Source of the DNA: Burkholderia sp. 9120
GTDB lineage: Bacteria; Pseudomonadota; Gammaproteobacteria; Burkholderiales; Burkholderiaceae
Length of the DNA stretch: 64,000 bases
Assembly: GCF_000745015.1 (NCBI RefSeq)
Contig: NZ_JQNA01000002.1
Coordinates: forward strand, 558,001-622,000
Reading direction: 5' to 3'
In this document: positions 28,054 to 58,492 of the stretch, in pieces
How positions within the stretch are numbered: position 1 is the stretch's first letter
How the letters are laid out: the number at the start of each line of letters is the position of its first letter
Notes under the pieces: generated by a model
Told to the model about the DNA's origin: nothing
Seen by the model: the letters and a program-made list of their open reading frames with translations, nothing else
Databases searched by the model: none
Translations under genes and position numbers: made by a program

Positions 28054-28215
28054 GCTTCGCTCCTCACTGTGCTTACCTTTCAAGCATTACAACAAACCTC
28101 ATACCTATCCTCTGTACGCCTTGCCACATAGCCCCTGCTACTTCGAGGCGCGGGCGGCACGGATAGCGTTGTTGTGCGAAAGACGAGCTGCAATGAAACG
28201 ATGCAAAAAATAGAT

Positions 28216-29193: not shown

Positions 29194-29469
29194 GGTCAAG
29201 CCCCGTTAAATAGCGGCACTGGGTGCCGATGCCGAGGGTGCCGAGGGTGTCGAAACGGCCCGGCCCTCTGTTGGCTACTCATTTAACCCTGGCGGATCGC
29301 AACTATCTGTACGGCCACCCACACAGGCACACGGGGCACCAGGGCACTATTCGAGGCTGCGACGGGCCGACGCCAACGTGCCACGCATGCCGCAGGGTGC
29401 GGCCGCGAACCGACGGCGTCCGGGACGCACCCCACCATTGAAGGACTTCAGCCGCCGGACAAGCGCACC

Positions 29470-34906: not shown

Positions 34907-37284
34907 GGGGTTTGCGCAACATTCGTTGAATGAGGTGGCGCGGCCGCTTGCGACGCAGCCGGTGGCATGAAGCGATACATCAGCGCCTTGCCGTACGCGT
35001 CTTCTTCAGCCAGCACGAGGTATTCGCCCGACGCGAGGCGGTGCGCGGTGAGCGGCATCGGCACATCGGCCCACCCGCTTTTCGAGCCGACTTCCCGGCC
35101 GGGCGACAAACGGCCGACGTCGTGTCCCGTGGCGCGGTCGTAGACCCGCACGACCGCGCTGCGCGTTTCGATCGCGAACACGTAGTCGCCCGCCACCGCG
35201 AAGCCGCTGATCGACGACCAGTCCGGCGCGCCGCGATCGGGCAAGCCGATCACATAGCGCAGCACCGGCTTGCCGCTCTTCCAGTGGTCGTAACGCGCGA
35301 GCTGCGAGCCCGCGCTATTCCAGTTGTCCTGCACGAACGGATGCGCGGGCGTCGAACCGGAGACGAACATCGTGTCGTCGTCGGGGAAATAATTCATCCG
35401 TGCGATCCGGTAGAACGGCGCGGGCGGCGGGTACTGCCGCATCGCCGAATAGCGGTAGATGGGATTGCCGGCGTGGTCGAAACCCTGCAACGGAAACTGG
35501 CGGATACCCTGCGATTCGGTGCCCTGCCAGATATCGCCATGACTATCGACCCACCACGCGCGCAGCGGCGGCGCGTTGGTGCTGCCAGTGTTCTGATCGA
35601 ACGCGGACGCGGAGAAATCGCCCTTGCCGGTGGCGTCGCGCCAGATCCATTCGCCCTGCGGCGGCTGGTTGGGCGGCCACGTGCCGTCGATATGCGCCTG
35701 CGAAAAGAGTCCCGACGGAATCGCGGTCTCGCGGTCGTCGGCGAAACGATAGATGCGCAGATACGACGAGTACATATCGGTTGTATAAAGCAGCCGATGG
35801 CCGCGCACGTCGCGCACCATCGGCATGCCGCGCTGACCGCCGAGATACAGATGAAAGTACGGGTCGTACGGATAGCGGAAACGGTCCGCCGTGTAACCGG
35901 CGTACGACCACTCTTCACCGGCGGGCCGCGACAGGTCGAGCGTGAAGCGCTTGCTGCCGGTGTAAATGGAAGGCGGCTCGCCGTCCACGAACTGCGCGCC
36001 GTCGACGAACAGCAGCCCTTGCAAACTGAAACGCTGCGCACCGTCCGGCGTGTAGCTTTCGAGCAGCGCACCGTCGAAGGTGCTCGGTCCCGCGCCGAAC
36101 GGACGCGGGCCTGCGCCGTTCATCGACACGTAGAGGTTGCCCGCGCGATCCACGCCAACCCCAGTCAGTCCGTTGAAGCGCTGCGGCCCCGGCGCGCCGG
36201 CCCGGCCTGCATAGATTCCGCCCTGCTGGCCGAAGCTCGCCGACAGTTGCATGCCCTCGCCGGGTTGAGACGCCGCCGTGAAAATCAGTATCTGCTGACG
36301 CACGCCGTTATCGGCGACCAGCAGACGTCCACGCGTATCGACGGTCAGATCCACCGGCACCACACCGGCAGGCAACGCCAATTCACCGAGCCGAGCACCG
36401 TCGCGCGCATGGTGAACCACGCGCCGCGCGCCCTCCGTGCGGCTGTTCTCGATGACCCACAGCGAACCGTCCGGCGCGAGCGCGAGACGGCCTGGCTCAT
36501 GCACCGGAAAACTGCCGACCGGCTGCATGGTCTGCGCGTCGAACATCTGCACGCGATTGTCGAGCTGGTTCCCGACGAAGAGCCGTGTTTCATCCGCGGC
36601 CAGGCCACGAATCGCGTAATCCCCCTTGGCCGGATACGCCGAAATCAGCAGATACGCGAGATGCCCGCCCGGAAATTTCACCTGCCCGGCAAACGGCACG
36701 CCGTCGCTGATATCCGCACGACTACGACGCGCCACGCCGGTCCACTCTTCGCCCTCGCGCGGTGTCGGCCGATGTTTGGCTTCCTCGTTGCCGAGGCTCA
36801 CCACCGTCTGCGCGGTGTAGACGTATTCGTCGTTCACCGCGATCGCGTCGCCGCCCATCATTCCCCAGCCGTGCGACTCGCCGCCGTGCCTCACCAGTTC
36901 GCCATTGCGGTATTGGCCGAGTTCACCGCCGCCTTCGTCCCACGGCGCATTCGTGAAGACGTCGCCATTCGGTGCGACGGCGATCGCCTGCACGTCGATC
37001 TGCATCCAGCGCTTGTCCGCGTAGCCCCACGTATTGCCGACCCACGAGGTCCGATACGACAACGACGGATGCGCAAGCGCTGCCAGCGCTTCGGCCGCCG
37101 GCACGGCGGCGGAGGCGACGGTCAACGCGCGCGCGCCGGCTGCCTCGGCAGCGCGCGCCAACGTCGCGCCTGCGCCCGTCACGGCACCGCCCGATCCGCC
37201 GGCGCTCAGCAGCACCAGCACCGGCAACGCCACCGCCGCGGCGCACACCACCCGTTCGAAAGTTTTGCGCGTGGGACGTCGCAT
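34903..37284 (-). CDS. Secreted/membrane-anchored beta-propeller-like (NHL-type) protein in EPS operon
   Basis: A 793-residue protein. The N-terminal hydrophobic segment RVVCAAAVALPVLVLLSAGG acts as signal or anchor. The body contains repeated propeller-like blades: VQAIAVAPNGDVFTNAP, GLAADETRLFVGNQLDNRVQ, RLALAPDGSLWVIENSR, DLTVDTRGRLLVADNGVRQQ, GVGVDRAGNLYVSMNGAG and FAVAGDYVFAIETRSAVVRV. No catalytic motif is recognised. Its stop overlaps the following GT4 start by 4 bp, and it starts 13 bp after the preceding GT4. It could bind, modify or guide the polymer in the periplasm. Confidence 0.82.
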   Translation of the reverse strand: MRRPTRKTFERVVCAAAVALPVLVLLSAGGSGGAVTGAGATLARAAEAAGARALTVASAAVPAAEALAALAHPSLSYRTSWVGNTWGYADKRWMQIDVQAIAVAPNGDVFTNAPWDEGGGELGQYRNGELVRHGGESHGWGMMGGDAIAVNDEYVYTAQTVVSLGNEEAKHRPTPREGEEWTGVARRSRADISDGVPFAGQVKFPGGHLAYLLISAYPAKGDYAIRGLAADETRLFVGNQLDNRVQMFDAQTMQPVGSFPVHEPGRLALAPDGSLWVIENSRTEGARRVVHHARDGARLGELALPAGVVPVDLTVDTRGRLLVADNGVRQQILIFTAASQPGEGMQLSASFGQQGGIYAGRAGAPGPQRFNGLTGVGVDRAGNLYVSMNGAGPRPFGAGPSTFDGALLESYTPDGAQRFSLQGLLFVDGAQFVDGEPPSIYTGSKRFTLDLSRPAGEEWSYAGYTADRFRYPYDPYFHLYLGGQRGMPMVRDVRGHRLLYTTDMYSSYLRIYRFADDRETAIPSGLFSQAHIDGTWPPNQPPQGEWIWRDATGKGDFSASAFDQNTGSTNAPPLRAWWVDSHGDIWQGTESQGIRQFPLQGFDHAGNPIYRYSAMRQYPPPAPFYRIARMNYFPDDDTMFVSGSTPAHPFVQDNWNSAGSQLARYDHWKSGKPVLRYVIGLPDRGAPDWSSISGFAVAGDYVFAIETRSAVVRVYDRATGHDVGRLSPGREVGSKSGWADVPMPLTAHRLASGEYLVLAEEDAYGKALMYRFMPPAASQAAAPPHSTNVAQTP

Positions 37285-37297
37285 GATCACGGCCGCG

Positions 37298-38455
37298 TCA
37301 GAACGCGTCGATCGCTTCGCGGTAGACGGCGGCGACCTGCGCGGCCACGACCGCCCGGTCGAAATGCTTGCGCGCATACGCGCGGCACGCCGCGTTGTCC
37401 GGCACCACGCGTTGGCCGAGCAGCACCTCCATGATGCCTTCGCCGATCGCCTTGAAGCCGCCCGACGGCAGCACCAGTTCCGCCGACAGCGGCGCCACCG
37501 CTTCGGGCAACCCGCCGACCGGCGTCACCAGCACCGGCGTGCCGGCCGCCAGCGATTCGATGGTAGTGAGACCAAAACCTTCGAGCGACACCGTCGGCAC
37601 CACCGACAGATCGGCCGCGCGATACCACAGCGGCACTTTGTCATCCGCGACGAAACCCACGAGCTGAACGTTGCGCTCCAGCCCGCGCGCGACGATCCGC
37701 GCCTGCAACTGCTCTTCCAGCGGCCCAGTGCCCGCGATGGTCAGCAGCACGTCGGGCAGCGCGGGTTTGACGATCGCCATCGCGTCGATCAGATCCTCCA
37801 GCCCCATGCGCGACACGAGCCGGCGCATACAGAACAGCAGTGGACGATCCTGCGGCAAACCGAGCCGCTCGCGCGCCTTGATCTTCGTTGCGCGCACATT
37901 GAATCGCGCAACGTCGACGCAACCCGGCACCACGCGAATCCGTTCCTCGCGCACGCCATAGGTCTCATGAAGCAGTTGACCGAAGGCCCGCGACAGCACG
38001 ATATGACGCGTCGCGCCGCGATAGACGAACCGTTCGAGGGCGACACGCGCCGCGCGCGACCAGCCGCCGCCACCGCCGGGATACGATTCGGCCGCCCACG
38101 GCCCGTGAAAATGCACGACCTTCGGCACGCGACGAAACACGCCGGCGGTCGGCGCCGCATACAGCGCGAAATGCGAGGCGACGACGTCGGGCATCTTCGC
38201 GGCGCGCAGCGCACGCGATTGCACCCGCGAGCCCCACAGCCGCGCGCCCAATTGCTCCTGCACACCGGCGAACGCCAGCACGCGGCCGCCCGACGCGTCG
38301 AACACGCCGGGGCTGCCCGCCACCATGCCGCGCACGCTGACGCCCTGGTCGGGCAGCGTGTCGATCAAGGCCTTGAACATCCGATCGAGGCCACCGGGCC
38401 GCTCGTTGAACCAGTGCATGCCGATCTGCAGCGAATCGATTGAAGTCCCACTCAT
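37298..38455 (-). CDS. Glycosyltransferase family 4 (EPS)
   Basis: A 385-residue GT-B transferase: IGMHWFNERPGGLDRMFKAL, VVHFHGPWAAESYPG, CMRRLVSRMGLEDLIDAMAI, IAGTGPLEEQL and the E-x7-E motif SLEGFGLTTIESLAAGTPVL. Its ATG overlaps the upstream GT4 stop by 4 bp. It is likely cytosolic and membrane-associated, acting on the lipid-linked EPS unit. Confidence 0.93.
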   Translation of the reverse strand: MSGTSIDSLQIGMHWFNERPGGLDRMFKALIDTLPDQGVSVRGMVAGSPGVFDASGGRVLAFAGVQEQLGARLWGSRVQSRALRAAKMPDVVASHFALYAAPTAGVFRRVPKVVHFHGPWAAESYPGGGGGWSRAARVALERFVYRGATRHIVLSRAFGQLLHETYGVREERIRVVPGCVDVARFNVRATKIKARERLGLPQDRPLLFCMRRLVSRMGLEDLIDAMAIVKPALPDVLLTIAGTGPLEEQLQARIVARGLERNVQLVGFVADDKVPLWYRAADLSVVPTVSLEGFGLTTIESLAAGTPVLVTPVGGLPEAVAPLSAELVLPSGGFKAIGEGIMEVLLGQRVVPDNAACRAYARKHFDRAVVAAQVAAVYREAIDAF

Positions 38456-39645
38456 AATTTCACCGGCGCGCTCGCGCAGTTGGACGGCATCGCGTGGGCT
38501 GTGCGCCGCGCGTGTACCTGTTCATAGACGGCCAGATAGCGTTCGGCCATCGCGTGCCAGCTCAAGGTGCCCGCTACTTCGCGCGCGGCCGCGCCGAGGC
38601 TTCGCGCATAGGCCGGGTCGCTAGCCAGACGTTCGATCGCGGCGGCCAGCGCCGTCGCGTCGTTGGGATCGGCGAGCACCATGCCGCTGCCGGCGCTGAT
38701 CACTTCCGCGCCGCCCGCGGTGCGCACGGTAATCACCGGCAAGCCGGCGGCCAGCGCTTCGAGCAACACCAGGCCCATCGGTTCGTAGCGCGACGGAAAC
38801 ACGAACGCATCGACCGAGCGCATCAGCGCGGGCATGTCCATCACCATGTCGGTGAAGTGGACCCGCTGCGTCAAACCGAGCGACGCCACCAGCGCCGGAT
38901 ACGGACTGTTGTGCAAAATCCCGGCGACGGCGAGATGCACGTCGGCGCGGGTCTGCACGAGTGCGTGCAGCACGGTGTCGAGATTCTTGCGCGACATGCG
39001 CAGATCGCCCGCGAACAGCAGCATGAACGGTGCGGACGGCAAGCCGAAACGCTCGCGTTCCGGCGCACCGGGCGTGAACTCGCCGACGTCGACGCCGTTA
39101 TGAATCACCTGCACGCGCGCCGCGCCGATGCCGAGCGCGCGCACCTCGCCGGCCACTTTCTGCGAGACCGGCACAATCACGTCCGCGTGGCGGAACGCCC
39201 ATTTTTCGCAGGCGATATTCAGCAGCGTGTAGATCACCTGATACGCGTGATACAGGTTGTGCAGCAATCGAAACGGATAGAAGCCGCAGCGATACCAGCC
39301 GTCGTGGACGAAATGCGCCGCGTTGACATCCGCGCGCGCCCACGCGATAAAACCGTTCACGTGCACCACGTCGAACTCGTCGCGATGCGCGCGAATCCAC
39401 GCGCCGCAGCGCCACGCGAACATCTGGTATTGCACGAGCTTGGTCGGCAGACGGCTGCCGGCAATCCGCACAAAACGCACGCGCGGATGCTCGATCAGTT
39501 CGGCGGCCGCTTCGGCGGCGAGCAGCGTCACGCTATGACCCGCCGCGAGCGCCGCCTGCACGATCTCGTAGTTGACTCGCCCTTGCCCATCGTTTTTACG
39601 CACGACATGGGTGACGATCAGAATCCTCATCCTGTGGTCCTTCAT
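38452..39645 (-). CDS. Glycosyltransferase family 4 (EPS)
   Basis: A 397-residue GT-B transferase: MRILIVTHVVRKNDGQGRVN, HFVHDGWYRCGFYPF, VIHNGVDVGEFTPGAPER, LFAGDLRMSRKNLDTVLHAL and the E-x7-E motif RYEPMGLVLLEALAAGLPVI. ATG 39645 overlaps the Wzy stop by 4 bp; ATG 39630, five codons on, is also possible. A longer frame extends into the Wzy region but is a shadow. Confidence 0.93.
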   Translation of the reverse strand: MKDHRMRILIVTHVVRKNDGQGRVNYEIVQAALAAGHSVTLLAAEAAAELIEHPRVRFVRIAGSRLPTKLVQYQMFAWRCGAWIRAHRDEFDVVHVNGFIAWARADVNAAHFVHDGWYRCGFYPFRLLHNLYHAYQVIYTLLNIACEKWAFRHADVIVPVSQKVAGEVRALGIGAARVQVIHNGVDVGEFTPGAPERERFGLPSAPFMLLFAGDLRMSRKNLDTVLHALVQTRADVHLAVAGILHNSPYPALVASLGLTQRVHFTDMVMDMPALMRSVDAFVFPSRYEPMGLVLLEALAAGLPVITVRTAGGAEVISAGSGMVLADPNDATALAAAIERLASDPAYARSLGAAAREVAGTLSWHAMAERYLAVYEQVHARRTAHAMPSNCASAPVKL

Positions 39646-41210
39646 CTGACTTTCTTCAGGTACTGTTCGATGCGTCGAGCGGCCGCGCCGGAAGCGGGCC
39701 GCGGCGTTTGACACTCGCGCGCGTAGCGCAGCGAAATGACCGGCAGGGTCACGCCGAGAAAGAAGAACATTCCCGACACGGAGGTCAGCGTGTTGATGAA
39801 AATCATCATCGAGAAAATCGCCACAGCCACGCCGACGCCCGACACCGCCATCAGATCGTTGGGATGCAGGCGGCTCGCACGGTATGCCCGCCACATCAGC
39901 ATCAGCACGCCGGCCGTATACAGCAGCGTGCCGGGCCAGCCCATCACGAAGGGCACTTCCATCAGGCCGCTGTCGAAATCGACCATGGCCTGCGATTTGT
40001 TGTCGGAGAGCTTGGTGCCCAGCCCGATCGAGCCGAAGCCCTGCCCCGCGATATCCGTGAACGCCGACGAAAAGAAGCTCTTGTAGAACTCCGCGCGCGC
40101 CTGATAGCTGTTGTCCTGGCCGAGGTCCTGCATCGTGCTGAAGCGCGCCATGACCGGCTCCGCGACCTGGTCGATCATCATCAACGGCGTGGCCATCACG
40201 GCCAGACCCAGCACGCCGGCCAGCAAACGCAGGCGGCTTTTGCCGTCGAGCATCGCGAACGAGTACACCAGCGCGATCGCGAAACCGCCCCACGTGCTGC
40301 GCGCGCTGGTCAGCAGCAACGCGGGAATGCCCACGCAGCCGAGTACGATGCGCGCCTTGCCGCGCGCCGCGAACGACATGAGCAGTAACGCCATCAACGT
40401 AACCGCGAACGGGCCGCACGAATTCATCGTGCTGCTCACGCGCATGCCGAACGGCACCGGCTGGCCTTCGGATTGCATCTTCGACGCGATCAGCCAGAAG
40501 GCGTCCCACGGCATTGGCGAGACGAATTCGAGCAGGCCGTACAGGCTCATCAGCAGTCCGCCGAACACGAAGGTCTTGAGCAGCACCCGGTGATAGTCGG
40601 GGTAATGACGCCATGTCACGGTCAGGTAGAACGCCACCATCACCGGATACAGCCAGTTGATCAGCGTGTAGGTGGCCGGCGCGGGACCGACCTGCGCCAT
40701 CCCGATCACATACGCGTAGAACAGCGCGATCACGATCAGCACCAGCGGCGCCGCGCGGCGCTGGCCCAGCAGCGTGACGTGCTTGAGCAGCGTCAGCCCG
40801 GTCAGCGCGACGGCCAGCAACGGCGCGACCATGATCGGGCTCTGGTCGTTGAACGCGCCGTTGACGAAGTCGGCGAGACGCCGCACTTCCGGCGTCAGGA
40901 AAAACAGCCAGCAGACGAAGCCGAGGTAATGCGCGGGCGAGCGCCAGTACAACACCAGCGCGACGCCGAACGCGCCGAGCGGGAAGAAAAACTCGACCAG
41001 CCGGCCCTGATGCAGCAGCACCAGCAGCAGGGTCACGGCGAATAACGCCAACGGCAGGCGCAGCGGATGACGCAGGCCTTTCGTTGGCGTACCTGAGGTG
41101 GCCGCTGGCGGCGCCGCCGGCGCTTCGCCGTAGGGCGGCCCGGGCGGCTTCAGTGGCTTCGGGACGGCGAGCTGAGCGGCACGCGAAGGCGTGACCAGCA
41201 TCCGCCCCAT
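39642..41210 (-). CDS. O-antigen ligase/Wzy-like polymerase family membrane protein (EPS)
   Basis: A 522-residue inner-membrane protein. A Pro-rich N-terminus is followed by 10-12 membrane segments and the large periplasmic loop expected of the Wzy_C/O-antigen ligase group: FYKSFFSSAFTDIAGQGFGS and the GLGTKLSDNKSQAMVDFDSG stretch. SSTMNSCGPFAVTLMALLLM and LLTSARSTWGGFAIALVYSF are typical. It probably polymerises lipid-linked repeat units. ATG 41210 lies within TGATG, one base overlapping the GNAT stop; a GTG at 41213 is an alternative. Confidence 0.88.
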   Translation of the reverse strand: MGRMLVTPSRAAQLAVPKPLKPPGPPYGEAPAAPPAATSGTPTKGLRHPLRLPLALFAVTLLLVLLHQGRLVEFFFPLGAFGVALVLYWRSPAHYLGFVCWLFFLTPEVRRLADFVNGAFNDQSPIMVAPLLAVALTGLTLLKHVTLLGQRRAAPLVLIVIALFYAYVIGMAQVGPAPATYTLINWLYPVMVAFYLTVTWRHYPDYHRVLLKTFVFGGLLMSLYGLLEFVSPMPWDAFWLIASKMQSEGQPVPFGMRVSSTMNSCGPFAVTLMALLLMSFAARGKARIVLGCVGIPALLLTSARSTWGGFAIALVYSFAMLDGKSRLRLLAGVLGLAVMATPLMMIDQVAEPVMARFSTMQDLGQDNSYQARAEFYKSFFSSAFTDIAGQGFGSIGLGTKLSDNKSQAMVDFDSGLMEVPFVMGWPGTLLYTAGVLMLMWRAYRASRLHPNDLMAVSGVGVAVAIFSMMIFINTLTSVSGMFFFLGVTLPVISLRYARECQTPRPASGAAARRIEQYLKKVR

Positions 41211-41743
41211 CACAACAGCTCGAAGGTATTGACGAGCACCGCGCCGTCGCGCTCGCGGCGGCGCGTACCGAAGCGCGGCGCGCTGCTGCGCACCTGGCGC
41301 GTCAGGCCGATGAACGGCACGCCGTGTTCCAGATACGGTCCTTCGGTCTTGCGAAAGCCGAATTGCTCGTAGAAGTCGCGCAAGCCGAGCGGCGCGCTCA
41401 CCCGCGCGGCGTGTCCCGGCCAGCGTTCCGCCATCGCCTGCAACACACGTTCGATCAGCAGTTCGGCGGTGCCGTCGCCGCGCCGCAGCGGGCTCGTCAG
41501 CACCTTGTCGATGGTGATTTCAGGATCTTCCGCGTCGCCGGGTTGCAAACGGGCGTAGGCGAGGATCGGCATGGGCCGCGCGATGTCCTCCACCGCGAAC
41601 ACGTGCAGCGAGTTTTCATCACGGCCGTCGGCGTCAAGACAGACATGCGACTGTTCGACCACGAACACCGCGCTGCGCGCGCGCAAAATCAGATATAGCT
41701 CGCGTGCCGAAAGCTGCTCGAATTCCAGCGTTTTCCAGTTCAT
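41210..41743 (-). CDS. GNAT family acyltransferase (ElaA-type)
   Basis: A 177-residue GNAT protein: LSARELYLILRARSAVFVVE at the start, AYARLQPGDAEDPEITIDKV, the acetyl-CoA loop SPLRRGDGTAELLIERVLQA and APLGLRDFYEQFGFRKTEG. It is the first gene of block B, coupled to the polymerase gene. It may acetylate or acylate a sugar precursor, or transfer the acyl group made by block C. GGGGAACG precedes ATG 41743. Confidence 0.87.
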   Translation of the reverse strand: MNWKTLEFEQLSARELYLILRARSAVFVVEQSHVCLDADGRDENSLHVFAVEDIARPMPILAYARLQPGDAEDPEITIDKVLTSPLRRGDGTAELLIERVLQAMAERWPGHAARVSAPLGLRDFYEQFGFRKTEGPYLEHGVPFIGLTRQVRSSAPRFGTRRRERDGAVLVNTFELL

Positions 41744-41891
41744 CACGTTCCCCAGCGGTCAATAAGTTCAGCGAGCGCGGCTTCGCCCGCCGCCCTCGAC
41801 GGCCTGGCTCGACAGGCCGGCACGTTGTCATGGCTACACGGTACGTCCGCGAAACGCGCGTTTCCGTGCGGCATCGCACTGACGCTGGGCT

Positions 41892-42034: not shown

Positions 42035-42286
42035 ATGAAAACCGCATTGCGACGCATCCTTTCCGAATCGGCCCGCCTCGATGTCCCGCCGGACAGCCTG
42101 GCCGACGACGCCGATCTGTACGCCGCAGGCCTCTCCTCGCTCGCGACCGTGCACCTGATGCTGGCAATCGAAGATCAGTTCGATATCGAGATTCCGGACC
42201 GGCTGCTGACGCGCCGGCTGTTCTCCAGCATCGATTCGATGGCCGCCGCGATCACCGAACTGCAACAGGCGAAGGCGGCAGCATGA
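42035..42286 (+). CDS. Free-standing acyl/aminoacyl carrier protein
   Basis: An 83-residue four-helix carrier protein. The phosphopantetheine site is in DLYAAGLSSLATVHLMLAIE; Ser35 before Leu is the likely attachment residue. FDIEIPDRLL and LFSSIDSMAAAI complete the fold. A G-run precedes the ATG at 42035. Its stop overlaps the next start by 4 bp. In known aa:CP ligase systems the dedicated carrier protein is encoded beside the ligase, as here, so it probably carries an amino acid thioester, not a fatty acid. Confidence 0.92.
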   Translation: MKTALRRILSESARLDVPPDSLADDADLYAAGLSSLATVHLMLAIEDQFDIEIPDRLLTRRLFSSIDSMAAAITELQQAKAAA

Positions 42287-43653
42287 ACACGCCGTTGCTG
42301 GACGCGGCCGCCGCCCAGGCGGCGGGGCCGCTCGTGCAGGCCGCCGCAGCGCAGGCCGCCGAAGCACACGCCGACGCCGTACAAGCCGCCGCCGCACAAG
42401 CCGATAAGGCCACCGTGGCCGCCGCCCAGCCCGGCGGCGACGCCGCCGTCATGCTCACGGCGGTCGAAACCGAGCCCGGCTGGCGCGCCGCCGCCCAGCG
42501 CTGCGCCGCGATCGCCGCGCAGTTCGCCGACGCGGTGGACCGCGACGCGCGTTTCCCGAGCGAGGCCTTCGACGCGCTCAAACGCGAGCGCCTGCTCTCG
42601 GTGATGGTGGCGGTCGCCTTCGGCGGCGCCGGGCTCTCGCTCGCGGAAGTCGGCGCGATCTGCGAGATCCTCGCGCAAGGCTGCGCGTCCACCGCGATGG
42701 TGTTCGCGATGCATCAGATCCAGGTGGCGTGTATCGCAGCGCATGGCAGCGGCTCGGCCTGGCATCGACAGTTGCTCGCGCAACTGGTCGAGCGGCAATG
42801 GCTGCTGGCTTCGGCGACGTCCGAGGAAACCATCGGCGGCAACATGCGCACCAGCGCCTGTTCGGTCGAACTCGACGGCGCGCGCTTTCGGATTGAAAAG
42901 CTCGCCCCGACGATTTCGTACGGCGCGCACGCGGACGGCATTCTGGTGACCGCGCGCCGCACCGCCGAATCGGCCGCGGCCGATCAGGTGCTGATCGTCG
43001 CGTTACGCGAAGAAACGCAGCTCGAAAAACGCGGCGGCTGGGACGCGATGGGCATGCGCGGCACCTGCAGCGAAGGCTTCCGGCTGGTCGCGGGTGGTCT
43101 CGCCGAACAGATTCTGCCGGCCCCGTTCGCCGAGATCGCCGACCAGACCATGCTGCCGGTCTCGCATACGTTGTGGGCGTCCGTCTGGACCGGCGTGGCC
43201 GGCGACGCGGTGAATCGCGCGAAAGCCTTCTTCCGCGCCCAGGCCCGCTCGACACCCGGCGCGGTGCCGCCGGCCGGCTTGCGCCTTGCCGAAGCGGTCG
43301 GCCTGCTGCAGATGATGCAGGCGCGCCTCGCGGTCGCGCTGGACGCCGCCCGCGCCGCGCACGACGCGCGTCATGGCCGCTCGCAGGCCGATGCGCCGCT
43401 CGCGGCCCAGCTCGGCTTCGCCTCCGACATGAACACGCTGAAGACCAGCATCTCCAACATGGCGCTGCAGGTCGTGCATGAAGTGCTGATGATCTGCGGC
43501 ATGGCGGGTTACAAGAACGGCACACCGTATAGCGTCGGCCGCCATTTGCGCGACCTGCACTCCGCGCCGCTGATGATCAACAACGACCGCATCGCACAGA
43601 ACACGGCGAGTCTGTTGCTCGCGCAACGGCCTGCCGCTCCGGGGAGAGCCTGA
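42283..43653 (+). CDS. Acyl-CoA dehydrogenase family flavoprotein (acts on carrier-bound substrate)
   Basis: A 456-residue protein. The first 55 residues are an Ala/Gln-rich low-complexity leader. The acyl-CoA dehydrogenase fold follows: RFPSEAFDALKRERLLSVMV, VGAICEILAQGCASTAMVFA, ASATSEETIGGNMRTSA, KRGGWDAMGMRGTCSEGFRL and NTLKTSISNMALQVVHEVLM. It probably uses FAD to oxidise an acyl or aminoacyl group on the neighbouring carrier protein. ATG 42283 overlaps the carrier-protein stop. Confidence 0.88.
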   Translation: MNTPLLDAAAAQAAGPLVQAAAAQAAEAHADAVQAAAAQADKATVAAAQPGGDAAVMLTAVETEPGWRAAAQRCAAIAAQFADAVDRDARFPSEAFDALKRERLLSVMVAVAFGGAGLSLAEVGAICEILAQGCASTAMVFAMHQIQVACIAAHGSGSAWHRQLLAQLVERQWLLASATSEETIGGNMRTSACSVELDGARFRIEKLAPTISYGAHADGILVTARRTAESAAADQVLIVALREETQLEKRGGWDAMGMRGTCSEGFRLVAGGLAEQILPAPFAEIADQTMLPVSHTLWASVWTGVAGDAVNRAKAFFRAQARSTPGAVPPAGLRLAEAVGLLQMMQARLAVALDAARAAHDARHGRSQADAPLAAQLGFASDMNTLKTSISNMALQVVHEVLMICGMAGYKNGTPYSVGRHLRDLHSAPLMINNDRIAQNTASLLLAQRPAAPGRA

Positions 43654-43657
43654 CAAA

Positions 43658-44755
43658 ATGAACAACATGACCGACACCGCCGCACTGGCCGGCGCGACTG
43701 ACGCTGCTTCTGACGCTGCTTCCGTTTCAGCCGCTGCTTCCGCAGAGCAACCCGCCGCGCCGAACTTCCGCGACGAACTGATCGCGGCGGGCCTGCTGAT
43801 CGACACCGGTGAAAACGGCCTGTACGGCCGCAGCCAGATTTTCGAAGACGTGCTGGACCGCCTGAACGTGGCGATCACGCATCTCGGCGCGGACCAGCAG
43901 CCGGAAGTGCTGCGCTTTCCGCCGGCCATGCGCCGCACCGACTTCGAAGATAGCGAATATCTGAAGAGCTTCCCGAATCTGGCCGGCACGATCCACTCGT
44001 TCTGCGGCAACGACATGGGCCACCAGCGTCTGCTGCGCGCGCTCGACGACGCGATGACCGAGCGCGACGACGACCGCGCGGATGCGTGGATGGAACAGCA
44101 GAAGCCCACTCGCGTGGTGCTGACGCCGGCCGCCTGCTATCCGATCTATCCGGTAATGGCGCGGCGCGGTCCGCTGCCGGCGGACGGCCGCACGATCGAC
44201 GTGCTGTCGTATTGCTTCCGCCACGAACCGTCGCTCGATCCCGGCCGCATGCAGATGTTCCGGCAGCGCGAATACGTGCGGCTGGGCAGTCCTGAGCAGG
44301 TGATGGCGTTCCGTCAGATGTGGATCGAACGCGGCTCGCTGCTCGTCACGCTGCTGCAACTGCCGGTCGAAGTGGATCTCGCCAACGACCCGTTCTTCGG
44401 CCGCGGCGGCAAGATCGTCGCCGACAGCCAGCGCGCTCAGGCGCTCAAGTTCGAGCTGCTGATTCCGATCGCCGATCCGCGCGGCAAGACCGCCTGCCTG
44501 TCGTTCAACTATCACATGGACCACTTCGGCGCGATCTGGAAAATTGCCTGCGACGACGGCGAGGTCGCGCATACCGGCTGTGTCGGCTTCGGCATGGAAC
44601 GCATCACGCTCGCGCTGTTCCGGCATCATGGGCTCGACGTGAATGCGTGGCCCGACGACGTACGCGCGCTGCTGTGGGGCGATACCGAGGCACGCGTGGC
44701 GCACGGCATGCAGACGCTGCCCGCCACTGCGCCCGGCGCCGGAGAGCGCGCATGA
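43658..44755 (+). CDS. Amino acid:[carrier protein] ligase (class II aaRS-like)
   Basis: A 365-residue homologue of the catalytic domain of atypical seryl-tRNA synthetases lacking a tRNA-binding arm. It activates a small amino acid with ATP and transfers it to a carrier protein. Motif 2-like SYCFRHEPSLDPGRMQMFRQ and motif 3-like GCVGFGMERITLALFRHHGL are present. The zinc ligands Cys160 (TPAACYPIYP), Glu205 (FRQREYVRLG) and Cys308 (AHTGCVGFG) are spaced 45 and 103 residues, the same spacing I recall for the Bradyrhizobium enzyme (131/176/279). The N-terminal 35 residues are Ala/Ser-rich. It lies 4 bp after the dehydrogenase gene and overlaps the DUF1839 gene by 4 bp. Confidence 0.93.
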   Translation: MNNMTDTAALAGATDAASDAASVSAAASAEQPAAPNFRDELIAAGLLIDTGENGLYGRSQIFEDVLDRLNVAITHLGADQQPEVLRFPPAMRRTDFEDSEYLKSFPNLAGTIHSFCGNDMGHQRLLRALDDAMTERDDDRADAWMEQQKPTRVVLTPAACYPIYPVMARRGPLPADGRTIDVLSYCFRHEPSLDPGRMQMFRQREYVRLGSPEQVMAFRQMWIERGSLLVTLLQLPVEVDLANDPFFGRGGKIVADSQRAQALKFELLIPIADPRGKTACLSFNYHMDHFGAIWKIACDDGEVAHTGCVGFGMERITLALFRHHGLDVNAWPDDVRALLWGDTEARVAHGMQTLPATAPGAGERA

Positions 44756-45855
44756 ACCCGTCGCTGACACCTGCGCCGACGGGGCCGCAAGCCGCTTTCC
44801 CGTTGGGGCGCCACGTCGATTTGCCCGCTCAGGACGGCGCCTCCTCGGCCGTGCCCGCAACGCCCACGGCGCCCGCCGCACTCGTCACGCCCGCCGCGCA
44901 TTTGCGGCAGCACGCGCCGCATGCGCTGCATCAGGGCGAGCGCGTGTGGCAGGAGACCAATTGCTACGTCGATCTGTGGATCGAGCTGCTGCACGGCTTC
45001 GGACTCGATCCACGCGCGGCATTGGCGTTCACCGTCACGCAGGACTTCGAAGGCGATCAGTTCACGTTCTTCAAATTCCCGCTCGAAGACCTCGAGCGGC
45101 TGTACGGCACCCAGGTGCAGGAACTGGCCATTTACGATTCGCTCGAAACCCGCGTGCTCGCGCAAACCCAGCGCGGCCATACCGTGCTGGTGGAAGTGGA
45201 CGGCTTCTATCTGCCGAACACGCGCGCCACGTCGTACCGGCGCGAGCATCCGAAGACGACGGTGGGCATCGACTTCATCGATCCCGCCGCGCGCCGCCTC
45301 GGCTACTTTCACAATACCGGCTATCACCAGCTCGACGGCGACGACTACGACGGCGTGTTCCGCAAGCTGCCGCAATTCGCGCAGCAACCCGACCTGCTGT
45401 TTCCGTATGTGGAATTCGCCAAGCAGGCGCGGCCCGCGCTCGAAGGTACCGCGCTCGCGGAAACCTCAGCGGAATTGTTGTGCGCGCATCTGAGCCGTCG
45501 GCCGTTGACGAACCCCGTGTCGCAATGGCGGGCGGCATTCCCCGCGCATCTCGACATGCTGCTCGAACGCGGCGAGGCGTTCTTCCATCCGTACTCGTTC
45601 AACCTGATGCGTCAGCTCGGCGCGAACTTCGAGTTTCTGTCGAAGTATCTGCTGTGGCTTGGCGCGCAAGGCTTCGAGATGCCGGCCACGATCCCAGCCG
45701 CCGCGCAAAGCATCGCAGCGGAGTCGATGGTGATGCAGTTCCGGCTCGTGCGGGCGATTGCACGCAAGCGCCGCGACCTGTGCGACGACTGTTTCGACGT
45801 GCTCGAAAGCGCTTATGAGAAGACGCTGCCGCCGCTCGCCGCGCTGGTGGCATGA
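44752..45855 (+). CDS. DUF1839 family protein
   Basis: A 367-residue protein. After a disordered 45-residue start it reads HQGERVWQETNCYVDLWIEL, FTVTQDFEGDQFTFFKFPLE, VLVEVDGFYLPNTRATSYRR, HPKTTVGIDFIDP and YFHNTGYHQLDGDDYDGVF. DUF1839 genes regularly accompany aa:CP ligases; the role is unproven, with transfer of the aminoacyl group as a reasonable guess. The Cys in the ETNCY segment and several His residues could be catalytic. It is the fourth gene of the coupled block C. Confidence 0.9.
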   Translation: MNPSLTPAPTGPQAAFPLGRHVDLPAQDGASSAVPATPTAPAALVTPAAHLRQHAPHALHQGERVWQETNCYVDLWIELLHGFGLDPRAALAFTVTQDFEGDQFTFFKFPLEDLERLYGTQVQELAIYDSLETRVLAQTQRGHTVLVEVDGFYLPNTRATSYRREHPKTTVGIDFIDPAARRLGYFHNTGYHQLDGDDYDGVFRKLPQFAQQPDLLFPYVEFAKQARPALEGTALAETSAELLCAHLSRRPLTNPVSQWRAAFPAHLDMLLERGEAFFHPYSFNLMRQLGANFEFLSKYLLWLGAQGFEMPATIPAAAQSIAAESMVMQFRLVRAIARKRRDLCDDCFDVLESAYEKTLPPLAALVA

Positions 45856-45927: not shown

Positions 45928-48513
45928 GTGGATGTAATGACGATCGACCCGACGCCCACCGAAGTCGAAGCCCATGGCTTGCCGGCGGACTCGCTGTGGC
46001 CGCAACGCCTCGACAGCGGCTGGCAATGCGTCAGCACGCCGCCAGGCGCTTGCGCGTCGCCCGCCGACCTGCCTGCGCAAGGCTGGCTCGCCGCGCCGGT
46101 GCCCGGCACGATCGCGAGCGCGCGGCGTGCCGCCGGTCAGTTCGACGTCACGCATCCCGCCCCGCTCGCCTTCGACGATCACTGGTATCGGCTCACGCTC
46201 AACGGCATCGGCCGACGTCGCTTGCGGCTGCACGGTCTCGCCACGCTCGCCGAGGTGTGGGTGGACGGCGTGAAGCGTCTCGATTCCGATTCGATGTTCG
46301 TCGCGCACGATCTCGACATCGAACTGAACGGCGATACCACGCTCGCGCTGTGCTTCCGTTCGCTGACTCCCGCACTCACGGCCAAACGCTCGCGCGCGCG
46401 CTGGCGGCCCCGGCTCGTGACGCCGCCCACACTTCGCAATGTGCGCACCACCTTGCTCGGACATATGCCGGGCTGGTGTCCTTCGGTCCAGGCGGTTGGA
46501 CCATGGCGGCCCATCGAATTGCTGAGCGACGCGCGTCACGCGATCGACACGCTCGATCTGACGAGTCGCGTCGATCACGACGACGGCGTTGTTTCGATAA
46601 CGCTACGTTTTGTGCATCCGCAGATTGGTGACGACTGTCATGCATCGTTAAATTGCGGCGACGCCGTTTCGTCTTTGCAATGGACCGACGCTTACACATT
46701 GAGCGGCAGCGTCCGCGTACTTCACGCCCAACGCTGGTGGCCGCACACGCACGGCGAACCCACGTTGTATCCCCTGACATTGCAGCTCGATGACGCGCGT
46801 GTGTCAGCCGAGCCGTCGTCGCATTCGCTCGGTTCGATCGGTTTTCGCAGCATCGAAGTGGAGCGCGGCGCGGACGGCATGGGCTTCGCGTTGCGCATCA
46901 ATGACACGCCGGTGTTCTGTCGCGGCGCCTGCTGGACCAGCGCGGATCTCGTCACGCTCGCCGGCAGCGAGGCGCAATTGCGCCACGCGTTCGCGCTGGC
47001 CCGCGACTCAGGCATGAACATGCTGCGCGTGGGCGGCACCATGGTGTACGAATCCGATACGTTCTACGCACTCGCCGACGAATACGGCCTGCTGATCTGG
47101 CAAGACTTCGCATTGGCGAATTTCGACTACCCGAACGACGCCGCATTCAGCGCGTCGATCGAACGCGAAGCCACTCAGTTTCTGACCCGCACGCGCCGCT
47201 TCGCGGCGCTCGCGGTGCTCTGCGGCGGCAGCGAAGTCGACCAGCAGGCGGCCATGTTCGGCCTGCCGCCTTCGATGCGCGCGCAACCTTTATTCACCGA
47301 ACAGTTGCCCGCGATCGCCGCGCGCGAACGCCCGGATGTGCCGTACGTCGGCAATTCGCCGTCAGGCGGCGTATGGCCGTTTTCAACTAATGAGGGCATT
47401 ACCCATTACTACGGTGTCGGCGCGTATCAACGGCCGCTCGACGACGTGCGGCGCGCGCAGGTGCGTTTTGCGGCGGAGTGCCTCGCGTTCGCCAACGTGC
47501 CCGACAACGCCACGCTGCACGACGCGCTCGGCACGATCCACGCGCACGATCCGCGCTGGAAAGCCGCGGTGCCGCGAGACCCCGGCGCGGGTTGGGATTT
47601 CGACGACGTGCGCGACCACTACCTGCAGTCGCTCTACGGCGTGGAGCCGGCGCGCTTGCGCTACGAAGACCCGGAGCGCTACCTGGATCTGTCGCGCGCA
47701 GTGGTCGCCGATCTGATGAGCGACGTGTTCGCCGAATGGCGCCGCGCGGGCTCCGGTTGCGGCGGCGCGCTGGTCTGGCAACTGCAGGACTTGCGCCCCG
47801 GCGCCGGCTGGGGCGTGATCGACGCCACAGGACGGCCTAAAAGCGCGCTGCACGGCCTCGCGCAGACGCTCCAACCCACACAGGTGGTCATCACCGACGA
47901 AGGCCTCAACGGCCTCGATATTCATCTGCTGAACGAGCGTGCTGAACCGTTGCACGCGCAACTGGAACTGGTCTGCCTGCGTGACGGCTGTGTGAAGGTG
48001 GTATCCGCGAGCCGCACGGTCAAACTCGCGCCGCACAGCGCGCAGCGCCTGAGCGCCGCCGACTGCCTCGGCCAGTTCTTCGATTTCACGCACGCGTACC
48101 GCTTCGGCCCGCGCGCGCACGACGTCACGATTGCGATACTGCGCGACGCGGCGGACGGCCGGGTTGTGTCTGAAGCGTTTCATCTGCCGGAGCGGCGCGT
48201 CGCCGAGCGCCATGATCTGGGCTTGAGCGTGACGGTCGAGCGCAGTCCGGCGGACGACGGCTGGCAGCTCGTCATTGAAACGAAGCGTTTCGCGCGCTTC
48301 ATTCATATCAATGACACACACTACCGGGCCGCGCGCGACTGGTTTCATCTGCCGCCGAACCGCCCTTGCGTCGTGCCGCTCATCCCACATGCCGAACTTC
48401 GCGAAATGGTTGCGTCCGCACCCAACCCCGTGTTTAAAGCTGACGCAACATGCGCGGCGCCGGCCGGAGAAGTGCGCGCGGTCAATGCGATTTCCGCCAC
48501 TTTCTACGGCTGA
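45928..48513 (+). CDS. Glycoside hydrolase family 2 (beta-mannosidase-like) protein
   Basis: An 861-residue protein with GH2 architecture: a sugar-binding-like sandwich (FDDHWYRLTLNGIGRRRLRL, HGLATLAEVWVDG), an immunoglobulin-like domain, then a TIM barrel (RGACWTSADLVTL, MLRVGGTMVYESDTFYALAD, EYGLLIWQDFALANFDYPND). The expected acid/base is Glu436 in LCGGSEVDQQ and the nucleophile Glu517 in VRFAAECLAF; the surrounding residues differ from classical CGNNE and SEFG. It has no signal peptide, so it is apparently cytosolic. GTG 45928 is used; ATG 45937 is possible. It follows DUF1839 by 72 bp. Confidence 0.85.
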   Translation: MDVMTIDPTPTEVEAHGLPADSLWPQRLDSGWQCVSTPPGACASPADLPAQGWLAAPVPGTIASARRAAGQFDVTHPAPLAFDDHWYRLTLNGIGRRRLRLHGLATLAEVWVDGVKRLDSDSMFVAHDLDIELNGDTTLALCFRSLTPALTAKRSRARWRPRLVTPPTLRNVRTTLLGHMPGWCPSVQAVGPWRPIELLSDARHAIDTLDLTSRVDHDDGVVSITLRFVHPQIGDDCHASLNCGDAVSSLQWTDAYTLSGSVRVLHAQRWWPHTHGEPTLYPLTLQLDDARVSAEPSSHSLGSIGFRSIEVERGADGMGFALRINDTPVFCRGACWTSADLVTLAGSEAQLRHAFALARDSGMNMLRVGGTMVYESDTFYALADEYGLLIWQDFALANFDYPNDAAFSASIEREATQFLTRTRRFAALAVLCGGSEVDQQAAMFGLPPSMRAQPLFTEQLPAIAARERPDVPYVGNSPSGGVWPFSTNEGITHYYGVGAYQRPLDDVRRAQVRFAAECLAFANVPDNATLHDALGTIHAHDPRWKAAVPRDPGAGWDFDDVRDHYLQSLYGVEPARLRYEDPERYLDLSRAVVADLMSDVFAEWRRAGSGCGGALVWQLQDLRPGAGWGVIDATGRPKSALHGLAQTLQPTQVVITDEGLNGLDIHLLNERAEPLHAQLELVCLRDGCVKVVSASRTVKLAPHSAQRLSAADCLGQFFDFTHAYRFGPRAHDVTIAILRDAADGRVVSEAFHLPERRVAERHDLGLSVTVERSPADDGWQLVIETKRFARFIHINDTHYRAARDWFHLPPNRPCVVPLIPHAELREMVASAPNPVFKADATCAAPAGEVRAVNAISATFYG

Positions 48514-49143
48514 AGCCGCGCGCCGATCGTACGAGTCCTTCAAGAACCGCATGAAACCTCGCGCTGCGCGAAGCGACCTGTCTGGTCTGCGGAATCACTG
48601 TCGGAATTTGCCCGACACCCGGCGGCGCGAACCCGGCGATTCGTACGGCACCGTACGCAGCGTATAGAACAGTTCTGAATCAAATCCGGCACATCCCGGA
48701 CACCCCTCGACAACCCTCATGCAAAGGGCATTGCATCCGTGAGACACCCTCTGCAAGGCCCTGCCCAACACCCACAAACCCAATCCGATCAAGGACTTGA
48801 GTCGGACAAAAAAGCCCCGCGCGAGACCAGCCGGGGATTCGTGTGTTGTACAGATTTGAAACAAAAAGCCACATTTTGCTTCGCGCATCGTCAAGTCTTC
48901 GCTCGCTGCGCCGCACCAGTGCTGGTTTTCCCCAAGGTTGGCACGCTCCTCGCTAAAGGAAGAGCGCAACACCGCGTCACCGCAAACAAGATCGACAAAA
49001 ACGGCGGCGGCGCACCAGGCCAATACGGGGCCGGTCCTGTTCATCCTCGCTGCTCGCCAGGCAGCACGTCGTTATCAAGGATGCAGGCATCGGATCAAAA
49101 ACAGGAAGTCACGCAGCGCGCGACTTCCACGCGAGGACCGATC
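48514..49143. other. Long regulatory intergenic region upstream of the Crp/Fnr-EPS operon
   Basis: 630 bp without a supported gene. It includes a sigma-54-like promoter (48939-48954) and a GC-rich inverted repeat near 48812-48832 (AGCCCCG and CGGGG arms). The open frame from 48739 runs into the Crp gene, but its first 135 codons do not look coding. Confidence 0.55.
48939..48954 (+). promoter_or_regulatory. Candidate sigma-54 (RpoN) promoter for the crp-wcaJ-GT2-wza-wzc operon
   Basis: TGGCACG (48939-48945), four bases, TCGCT (48950-48954). The -24 GG (48940-48941) and -12 GC (48952-48953) have the correct 12-bp register. One base departs from the consensus TTGCW. It would leave a leader of about 180 nt before the Crp/Fnr ATG. 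Confidence 0.45.
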
Positions 49144-49878
49144 ATGTTGACACTTCAATCAGATCTGCACGGCAACCATTTGCTCGGCGCATTGCCTTCC
49201 CACGAATGGCAGGCGCTAGCTCCGCATCTCGAACTGGTTCACCTGCGCACTGAGCAGTTGCTGTGCGACTCCGGTCAACGCATCCATCACGTCTACTTCC
49301 CCACCACCGCGATCATCTCGATGCTCTCGACGATGGAAGACGGCAGCTCCGTCGAAATCGCGGCAGTGGGCCGCGAAGGCATGACCGGCGTGCCGGTGCT
49401 CACGGGCGGCGAAACCATGCCGAACCGCGTGCAGGTGCAATGCGCCGGCTTCGCGTACCGCATGAGCGCACAGGCGCTCAAGCAACAGTTCGCCCGTTCG
49501 GACTTCCTGCGCCGGCTGATGCTGCTGTACATGCACGCCCTGCTGACCCAGGTCGCGCAAACCGCCGCCTGCAATCGTCACCACGCATTGAACAAGCAAC
49601 TGTGCCGCTGGTTGCTGATCGAAGTGGACCGCGTGGCGTCGAACGATCTGACCGTGACCCAGCAACTGATCGCCGACATGCTCGGCGTGCGCCGCGAAGG
49701 CATTACCGAAGCGGCCGGCAAGTTGCACGACGAAGGCCTGATTCACCACAGCCGCGGGCACATCAAGGTGCTCGACCGCAAAGGCCTCGAAGCCCGTGCC
49801 TGCGAATGCTACGGCCTCGTCAAGCGCGAATTCGACCGCCTGCTGCCGCGTCTGCGTCAGGCCGAAACGGTCGAATAA
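49144..49878 (+). CDS. Crp/Fnr family transcriptional regulator
   Basis: A 244-residue regulator. The N-terminal cyclic-nucleotide-binding-like beta-roll reads CDSGQRIHHVYFPTTAIISM, DGSSVEIAAVGREGMTGVPV and PNRVQVQCAGFAYRM. The C-terminal winged helix reads VTQQLIADMLGVRREGITEA, AGKLHDEGLIHHSRGHI. The Fnr iron-sulfur cysteine cluster at the N-terminus is absent. GAGGA is before ATG 49144. It is 35 bp upstream of the WcaJ-type gene and so is first in the EPS export operon. In Burkholderia cenocepacia a Crp/Fnr protein (BerA) acts as a c-di-GMP effector for EPS; equivalence here is unproven. Confidence 0.9.
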   Translation: MLTLQSDLHGNHLLGALPSHEWQALAPHLELVHLRTEQLLCDSGQRIHHVYFPTTAIISMLSTMEDGSSVEIAAVGREGMTGVPVLTGGETMPNRVQVQCAGFAYRMSAQALKQQFARSDFLRRLMLLYMHALLTQVAQTAACNRHHALNKQLCRWLLIEVDRVASNDLTVTQQLIADMLGVRREGITEAAGKLHDEGLIHHSRGHIKVLDRKGLEARACECYGLVKREFDRLLPRLRQAETVE

Positions 49879-49913
49879 GCAGGGCCTCGTTCGACTATCG
49901 GGTAATTTCAATC

Positions 49914-51308
49914 ATGTTCAGGAATACTGCGCGATGCCTCGACGCACTCTTCGTGATTGCGGGAGGCCTGCTCGCTCACTGGATGCGCTTTTCGACGCCG
50001 ATCGCGTTGTCCGACACCGAGCGCCTGTTGATCGCCTTCAACTGCGTGCTGGTGCTGCTGCTGTTTCCCGGCTTCGGGGTGTATGACACGTGGCGCGGCA
50101 AAGCCTTGAGCTCGATGCTGGCGCGCGTTGCCGCCGCCTGGCTGGTCGTTGTCGCCACCGCGCTCGTGCTGGCGTTTACGCTGCATCGCATGGATGCCGT
50201 GTCGCGTTTGTGGTTCGGCTATTCGACGCTGATTTCCGGCGCGCTGATCGTCGTCACCAAGTGCGTCGTGCACGTGGCGCTGCGCAGTGTGCGCCGTCGC
50301 GGCATGAACTTCCGCACCGTCGCGATCGTCGGGGCGCCCGGCTTCTCGCGCACGCTGCTCGCGCATCTCGAGCACGCACCGCAAGCGGGCTTCAAACCGG
50401 TCTGCGTGTTCGATACGAGCGACACCCGCATCGACGGGGCCGGCGCCTATGGCGCACGAATGAAACGCCTGCCGGTGCTGACCGATCTGAATACGTTCGT
50501 CAACAAGGTGCGCGACGAACAGGTGAACGAAGTGTGGCTCGCGTTGCCGCTCTCCGAAGAACATACGATCTATCGCTTCACGCGGCTATTCAGGAATGAC
50601 TTCGTGAATCTCCGCTTCATTCCGGACGTGCGCAGTCTGTCGCTGTTCAATCATGCGCTGGTCGATGTCGTCGGTTTACCGACGCTGAATCTGAGCGCGA
50701 CGCCGTTCTCGTCGCCGCAAATGTGGCCCAAGCTGATCTTTGACCGCCTGTTCGCGGCGGCCGCGCTGCTCGCGCTCGCGCCGGTGTTCGTCGTGCTCGC
50801 GATCGGCATCAAGCTGAGTTCGCCGGGACCGGTGTTCTTCCGCCAGACGCGCAAGGGCGTGGACGGCCAGCCGTTCGCGATCTACAAGTTCCGCTCGATG
50901 ACCGTGCATCACGAAGCGCACGGCCAGATCACGCAGGCCACGCGCCACGACGCGCGCATCACGAAACTCGGCGGCTTCATGCGCCGTACCAGCCTCGACG
51001 AGCTGCCGCAGTTTCTCAACGTGCTGCTCGGGCAGATGTCGGTGGTCGGTCCGCGTCCGCACGCGGTCGAACACGACGATCTCTACAAGGATCAGGTGTA
51101 CGGCTACATGTACCGCTACCGCATCAAGCCGGGCATCACCGGCTGGGCCCAGGTGAACGGCTATCGCGGCGCTACCACCAAGGTGGAAAAGATGGAGGCG
51201 CGCGTCAAGTTCGACCTGTTCTATATCCATAACTGGTCGTTCTGGTTCGACATGAAGATCGTGCTGATCACGATCTTCAAAGGCTTTGTCGGCCACAACG
51301 CATTCTGA
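49914..51308 (+). CDS. Undecaprenyl-phosphate glucose phosphotransferase (WcaJ-type)
   Basis: A 464-residue polyisoprenyl-phosphate hexose-1-phosphate transferase that starts repeat-unit synthesis on the inner membrane. Four N-terminal membrane segments and a CoA-binding-like middle domain ([20 protein letters not shown]) are followed by the catalytic domain: [63 protein letters not shown] and [15 protein letters not shown]. There is no clear Shine-Dalgarno before ATG 49914. Confidence 0.95.
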
Positions 51309-52261: not shown

Positions 52262-52298
52262 GGCAATGGCGCACAAGCTTCACGCGAGGGACCAAACA

Positions 52299-53498: not shown

Positions 53499-53520
53499 TG
53501 CGCACGCAACGGAGTCTCCT

Positions 53521-58324: not shown

Positions 58325-58492
58325 GATCTCCCCACCTATTGATAAACGCCTCCAGGGCTTAGCGAAGAGTGTAGGTGTCGCATCGTTTGCCGTGCGTGCG
58401 CGTGCCCACATTCGACGCGCGACAGTGCGCGAATAATTAAGCATCGCGGTTCGCCTCTTGCGAATCCGCGCCTCTCAATCACTCGCCTTCCT

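Follow-up and report, generated by a model that had tools for sequence, protein, structure and literature searches.

The 64,000-nt stretch of Burkholderia sp. 9120 examined here (NCBI RefSeq assembly GCF_000745015.1, contig NZ_JQNA01000002.1, positions 558,001 to 622,000 of the forward strand; hereafter, the window) contains an operon for an amino acid:[carrier protein] ligase, located among exopolysaccharide (EPS) genes (Table 1). The genes for a free carrier protein, an acyl-CoA dehydrogenase (ACAD)-fold flavoprotein, the ligase, and a DUF1839 protein all lie on the + strand with junctions of 4-nt overlaps or gaps; together with the family matches of the carrier protein, the ligase, and the DUF1839 protein, this confirms the tight four-gene operon described in the initial annotation, which was made from the sequence alone. 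The operon should, however, be extended by a fifth gene that was absent from that annotation; namely, a GH2 gene starting 72 nt after the DUF1839 gene. No promoter or terminator was picked up in scans of the operon's surroundings, which has no bearing on the operon structure, and a single ligase match was found in the genome of 8.46 Mb.

The ligase scores 533 bits against the NCBIfam model NF005479 (cut-off 357) and is homologous over 310 residues to the PDB chains of BlCCL1 from Bradyrhizobium japonicum (4h2w, E 8e-86; 3mey, E 4.9e-84). In an alignment of the ligases from ten chosen loci and the window, the zinc ligands (Cys160, Glu205, and Cys308), which had been annotated as intact, were indeed invariant in all 11 sequences and aligned with the motifs of BlCCL1. 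Arg188, Glu190, and Arg315, which we take to play their roles in class II aminoacyl-tRNA synthetases (aaRSs), were likewise invariant. By homology and zinc ligands, the protein is hence a member of the amino acid:[carrier protein] ligase family and is predicted to aminoacylate a carrier. The two matched PDB ligase sequences differ in one stretch, where the one deposited with an Atu2571-type carrier is closer to the window's ligase. The carrier protein, furthermore, passes the NCBIfam model NF005480 (127 bits, cut-off 72), and its best relatives in the PDB are 4h2w_C (E 8e-20) and 2jq4, Atu2571 of Agrobacterium (E 8.5e-20); its phosphopantetheine site is probably Ser35 in GLSSL, as assigned by eye. 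As far as we know, the biological role of such ligases is still unsettled.

Of 398 Pseudomonadota genomes, 44 have relatives of the ligase and 16 have DUF1839, the 16 all falling inside the 44 (Fisher p 3e-17; relatedness is ignored in this and the later test). These 16 genomes are exactly those having a ligase at least 55% identical to that of the window, and in each, DUF1839 is matched no more than 153 nt downstream of the ligase; a second DUF1839 copy occurs elsewhere in G255 and G328. Eleven of the DUF1839-type genomes belong to classes other than that of the window's family (here termed Burkholderiaceae) and are probably alphaproteobacteria, in line with the Agrobacterium operon in a 2010 note added in proof (PMC2922099). 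Another 12 genomes, which we label the Bradyrhizobium type, have a ligase 43–49% identical to that of the window and no match to DUF1839 or GH2. A scan of named genomes confirmed 573 loci, of which the best 80 were kept; the closest to the window's operon were from Paraburkholderia, and the set is an uneven sample because all bear Burkholderiaceae titles except one, which is titled as a Burkholderiales metagenome-assembled genome. The order carrier protein–ACAD–ligase is kept in 80/80 of these Burkholderiaceae loci and in 11/11 DUF1839-type loci of other classes, and the arrangement is therefore not due to chance. The five-gene order was found in all 11 of the latter and, by best match, in 69 of the 80; among the 11 Burkholderiaceae loci outside it, seven are from Cupriavidus/Ralstonia, where the operon copy is the second-best DUF1839 match, and three (L077, L088, and L095) sit on contigs that end. 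L078, from Caballeronia glathei, has the carrier protein, flavoprotein, and ligase genes with the tandem hydrolase described below just upstream, and no match to DUF1839 or GH2 though the contig continues. In 4 of the 11 other-class loci (L117, L119, L120, and L121), EpmA- and EpmB-like open reading frames (ORFs), resembling by eye those for EF-P modification, lie 2.6–6.5 kb upstream of the ligase and upstream of the flavoprotein gene.

ACAD adjoins the ligase in the 12 Bradyrhizobium-type loci, and a carrier protein was found in nine; in BlCCL1 itself (bll0957), an ACAD gene (bll0958) is adjacent by locus number according to PMC10888616. Three of these loci were scanned in part with Pfam: the ligase of L125 stands beside genes for a nucleoside phosphorylase and a protein of the IF-2B type, which we read as methionine salvage, and that of L130 beside sulfur-amino-acid genes, therefore suggesting a role different from that of the DUF1839 type. 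In L128, a Wzz protein is encoded near the ligase. Nine distant ligase-like loci had no match to any partner.

The DUF1839 protein matches PF08893 with E 1.5e-133 (445 bits, cut-off 22.5). Searches of the PDB with the single sequence and with a profile gave nothing usable, and only fold comparison gave matches; the predicted model matched CcbD and CtaG or AziU2/U3 in full length, well above proteases, and shares the fold of the carrier protein-dependent transferases of the CcbD/LmbD/CtaG type throughout its catalytic and helical parts. Cys71, which would correspond to Cys19 of CcbD, begins the first core helix (71–82, predicted) and is kept in 43 of the 44 aligned best matches; also, His166, His187, and Asp198 are invariant. 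Arginines are conserved near the C-terminus (Arg334, 44/44; Arg338, 39/44; Arg331, 34/44) and may correspond to the Arg-rich helix with which transferases of this type bind the carrier protein. As judged from the model, the DUF1839 protein is likely a CcbD/CtaG-like papain-fold aminoacyl transferase dependent on a carrier protein.

CcbD and LmbD of lincosamide synthetase share with DUF1839 the full-length predicted fold, an N-terminal Cys, and a carrier-bound amino acid as the donor; nonetheless, the sequence identity is ~14%, an adenylation domain (LmbC) takes the place of the aaRS-like ligase in loading the donor, and the acceptor is a thiooctose. We know of no flavoprotein or glycosidase partner in lincosamide synthetase matching those described here. 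CtaG (closthioamide) and AziU2/U3 (azinomycin) resemble DUF1839 in the predicted fold over ~269–283 residues but belong to other pathways, in which the acceptors are not sugars. BtrH is also papain-like and moves an acyl group from an acyl carrier protein (ACP) to an aminoglycoside, as described in PMC10318531, but it is of another Pfam family (PF14399) and is absent among the fold matches listed. DUF1839 is mentioned in PMC10318531, among the matches listed; in the literature searched, no paper was found that names DUF1839 together with CcbD, LmbD, CtaG, closthioamide, or “condensation enzyme”.

The GH2 protein is beta-mannosidase-like and a predicted hydrolase by homology and by Glu436 and Glu517, which are present in 20/20 aligned sequences and which we take, from the alignment with PDB beta-mannosidases, to be the two catalytic Glu; no signal peptide is apparent by eye. 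GH2 was matched in 16/16 genomes with DUF1839 and in 0/13 others searched (the 12 of the Bradyrhizobium type and G322). A further partner is a tandem alpha/beta-hydrolase, the halves of which resemble the exosortase-A-associated hydrolases TIGR03101 and TIGR03100, below the cut-offs. In a survey at E 1e-20 or better with at most three candidates scored per genome, it was present in 16/16 genomes with DUF1839, whereas both domains were found in only one (G322) of the 382 others (Fisher p 1e-27) and a single domain in two more. The tandem hydrolase shares a contig with the ligase in 13 of the 16 genomes, at a distance of ~3.5 to 21 kb, and lies on another contig in G255, G107, and G191. It appeared in the fetched flanks of 18/80 Burkholderiaceae, 8/11 other-class, and 0/12 Bradyrhizobium-type loci, which are lower bounds because in the window the hydrolase sits beyond 10 kb. 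In two loci, a Wzx-type part and the tandem hydrolase form one open frame of ~1100 aa (L121:15272-18598 by Pfam and tblastn; L119:1456-4767 by tblastn).

As for the flavoprotein, profile and fold comparisons place both dehydrogenases and flavin monooxygenases or nitrososynthases among its nearest solved relatives (7p98, KijD3, DnmZ, the nitrososynthase 3mxl, DszC/TdsC, and true dehydrogenases). The position of the classical catalytic Glu (Glu376 in MCAD) is occupied by Ile432 in 41/41 aligned flavoproteins, including six of the Bradyrhizobium type, and the commonest residues at positions 289–299 include no acid. The residue of 7p98 that pairs with Ile432 in the alignment is the third of its IYTGT motif, which presumably corresponds to the catalytic Glu of IYEGT in MCAD. 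Because 7p98, the best profile match and named a dehydrogenase by its depositors, has Thr at this place, a catalytic base elsewhere in the flavoprotein is possible; in addition, the prolyl-ACP dehydrogenase 4irn matches at E 2e-13, and the RedW model matches below its cut-off. Glycine, if it is the amino acid used, has no beta carbon, which further weakens desaturation. The desaturation on the carrier that the initial annotation had put forward thus appears less likely from the sequence than was held there. The flavoprotein is probably an oxidizing enzyme, for which N-oxidation, imine formation, and hydroxylation are open options; since its gene stays with the ligase even in loci that lack DUF1839 and GH2, the substrate is most likely the aminoacyl-carrier and not a sugar.

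Table 1. Genes of the operon and of its surroundings, with positions in the window.
Feature	Position	Strand	Basis
Carrier protein, free aminoacyl carrier, 83 aa	42035..42286	+	PF00550 E 9.7e-11
ACAD-fold flavoprotein	42283..43653	+	PF02771
Amino acid:[carrier protein] ligase, class II aaRS-like	43658..44755	+	PDB, NF005479
DUF1839 protein, predicted CcbD/CtaG-like papain-fold aminoacyl transferase, Cys71	44752..45855	+	PF08893
GH2, beta-mannosidase-like, fifth operon gene	45928..48513	+	PDB beta-mannosidases E 2.6e-39
Tandem alpha/beta-hydrolase, co-occurring partner	26104..28083	-	PF12146; TIGR03101 + TIGR03100 domains below cut-off
GT2 glycosyltransferase	28216..29199	-	PF00535
Wzx-type flippase	29470..30927	+	PF01943 E 8.8e-19
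GT4 glycosyltransferase	33785..34906	-	PF13692/PF00534
NHL-repeat-like protein	34903..37377	-	PF01436
GT4 glycosyltransferase	37298..38455	-	PF00534
GT4 glycosyltransferase	38452..39621	-	PF00534
Wzy/O-antigen-ligase-like polymerase	39642..41213	-	PF04932, below cut-off
Divergent GNAT, ElaA-like	41210..41746	-	PF13673; PRK10314 below cut-off
Crp/Fnr-type regulator (start uncertain)	48739..49878	+	PF13545, PF00027
WbaP-like initiating sugar transferase (start uncertain)	49854..51308	+	PF02397
GT2 glycosyltransferase	51311..52261	+	PF13641/PF00535
Wza-like export protein	52251..53498	+	PF02563
Wzc-like tyrosine kinase / chain-length protein	53515..55926	+	PF02706, PF13807
GT4 glycosyltransferase	57107..58444	-	PF00534
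GT4 glycosyltransferase	58493..59878	+	PF00534

As annotated, the operon is flanked on both sides by EPS genes, with three GT4s and a Wzy/O-antigen-ligase-like gene upstream and, after a Crp-like regulator, WbaP-like, GT2, Wza, and Wzc genes downstream, and its divergent neighbor encodes a GNAT. Wza or WbaP was found within 10 kb of the ligase in 5/5 genomes of the window's family but in 0/11 DUF1839-type genomes of other classes and 0/12 of the Bradyrhizobium type; the contigs of G191 and G167 end 2.5 and 4.4 kb upstream of the ligase, respectively. At least one of nine EPS query proteins was matched by tblastn in the flanks of 74/80 Burkholderiaceae loci, some of the matches being weak or 10 kb away, and the gene sets vary; in L067, for example, the match is a GT4 nearly 10 kb off, and UvrA-like, IlvD-like, and transporter genes are elsewhere in the flanks. 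The six loci with no such match are L072, L075, L076, L077, L078, and L088, among which L077 and L088 are short. In the other classes, where flanking ORFs were scanned only in part, at least 5 of the 11 loci (L114, L116, L118, L119, and L121) have GT4, Wzz, or Wzx within ~10 kb. Among the GT4 matches listed, one is near the G262 ligase. The EPS co-location therefore depends on lineage: the operon in Burkholderiaceae is mostly among EPS genes, and the co-occurrence expected from the initial annotation is observed in one family but only partly elsewhere. A GNAT homologue was in the flanks of 46/80 Burkholderiaceae but 0/11 other-class loci; the GNAT was thus set aside as part of the conserved module and is probably a local neighbor.

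Two genes within the EPS locus, which separate the flippase from a GT4, encode an immunity protein of the Imm52 type (30969-31697, -) and a DUF4123 protein (32647-33150, -), both characteristic of type VI secretion effector cassettes. Next to the Wzc gene is a gene for a HigB-type toxin (56498-56797, -), with an overlapping small ORF (within 56079-56797) lacking a Pfam match. In published EPS clusters of Burkholderia biofilms, the bep cluster as printed in PMC3584217 includes no ligase, ACP, or glycosidase, and the main text of PMC5507470 does not contain “tRNA synthetase”, “carrier protein”, or “mannosidase”.

The 2010 note added in proof (PMC2922099) ties the Atu2571–Atu2574 type of operon, with a SerRS-like carrier protein ligase, an ACP, a redox enzyme, and an uncharacterized ORF, to glycosidase and liposaccharide genes and predicts that the product of this ORF (Atu2574) makes an amide with an amine on a cell-surface sugar. 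The general idea that a carrier-bound amino acid is passed to a surface sugar is hence already in print, and we infer that Atu2574 is a DUF1839 protein. In the passages of that note consulted, however, the ORF has no structural assignment, and neither numbers nor the tandem hydrolase are given. The structural link of DUF1839 to CcbD/CtaG is new here, as are the division of the ligases into two types, the tandem hydrolase and the numbers on co-occurrence, the paralogues that lack the Cys, and the evidence against a classical desaturase.

As a whole, the best explanation is a lincosamide-synthetase-like system acting on a cell-surface glycan, to which we give an even chance of being correct. The amino acid that the ligase would activate and load onto the carrier protein would be a small one, by analogy glycine or alanine, and the flavoprotein would oxidize the aminoacyl group on the carrier, probably by a reaction other than that of classical alpha,beta-dehydrogenases. 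Cys71 of DUF1839 would then accept the aminoacyl group, for transfer to a cytoplasmic sugar or a lipid-linked glycan at an amino group or, with lower likelihood, a hydroxyl; GH2 would trim or edit the aminoacylated glycoside, and the tandem hydrolase may come into play later, near the Wzx flippase. Regarding the earlier suggestion that an amino acid decorates the polysaccharide or a sugar precursor, the transfer from carrier to sugar gains from the CcbD/CtaG-like predicted fold, the conserved Cys, and the EPS setting in Burkholderiaceae, but the link with EPS is bound to lineage. A more specific version is doubtful; namely, a six-gene aminoacyl-thioester glycan-modification system across several Pseudomonadota classes, in which DUF1839 would amidate a lipid-linked amino sugar with oxidized glycine/alanine before flipping, GH2 and the hydrolase would be obligatory, and Cupriavidus/Ralstonia would have a pair of active and Cys-less DUF1839.

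Several observations weigh against the glycan-modifying system. The fold match of DUF1839 is that of a predicted model at 10–14% identity, and its second and third catalytic residues may be those of the C(T/S)H given by a published model (PMC10318531) or may lie among the invariant His166, His187, and Asp198. In eight of the nine Cupriavidus/Ralstonia loci examined (L083, L084, L086, L087, L089, L091, L102, and L105), the operon copy of DUF1839 has Arg in place of the Cys; one of these copies is in the 44-sequence alignment, and a second, Cys-bearing copy is in the same locus in seven of the eight. G322, of the window's genus, has the tandem hydrolase without the ligase, and no amino-sugar biosynthesis gene was recognized among the window proteins scanned. 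Also, Wza/WbaP is not within 10 kb in any of the 11 other-class genomes, and the flanks of the full-length Caballeronia loci (L072, L075, L076, and L078) are without an EPS query homologue. The lack of Wza/WbaP and the retention of the five-gene operon in L072, L075, and L076 would be consistent with a small soluble aminoacyl-glycoside as the product (mycothiol- or lincosamide-like), the EPS genes being mere local neighbors, as would the GH2 with no apparent signal peptide and the fact that CcbD itself makes a small molecule. We nonetheless regard this alternative as unlikely, given that the tandem hydrolase co-occurs in 16/16 genomes and is near or fused with a Wzx-type flippase in several and that the EPS linkage in Burkholderiaceae holds across differing EPS gene sets.

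DUF1839 might, alternatively, hydrolyze or edit the aminoacyl-carrier in the manner of a thioesterase or protease, with the acceptor step left to another enzyme such as the tandem hydrolase; this is improbable, since the full-length fold matches are the carrier-dependent CcbD, CtaG, or AziU2/U3, well above proteases. Even less probable is the scheme of the initial annotation, where the flavoprotein desaturates the aminoacyl group and GNAT or another transferase attaches the product to EPS. Indeed, the ACAD fold, the Glu-less dehydrogenase 7p98, and the match to 4irn would fit such a reaction, but Ile at the position of the catalytic Glu, the lack of an acid among the commonest residues at 289–299, and the absence of GNAT homologues in the other-class loci argue against it.

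With DUF1839 as a likely CcbD-like transferase, two types of ligase, and the tandem hydrolase, the system amounts to a concrete and assayable pathway. If the product is indeed a polysaccharide amide, it would represent a new way of placing amino acids on bacterial surface glycans.

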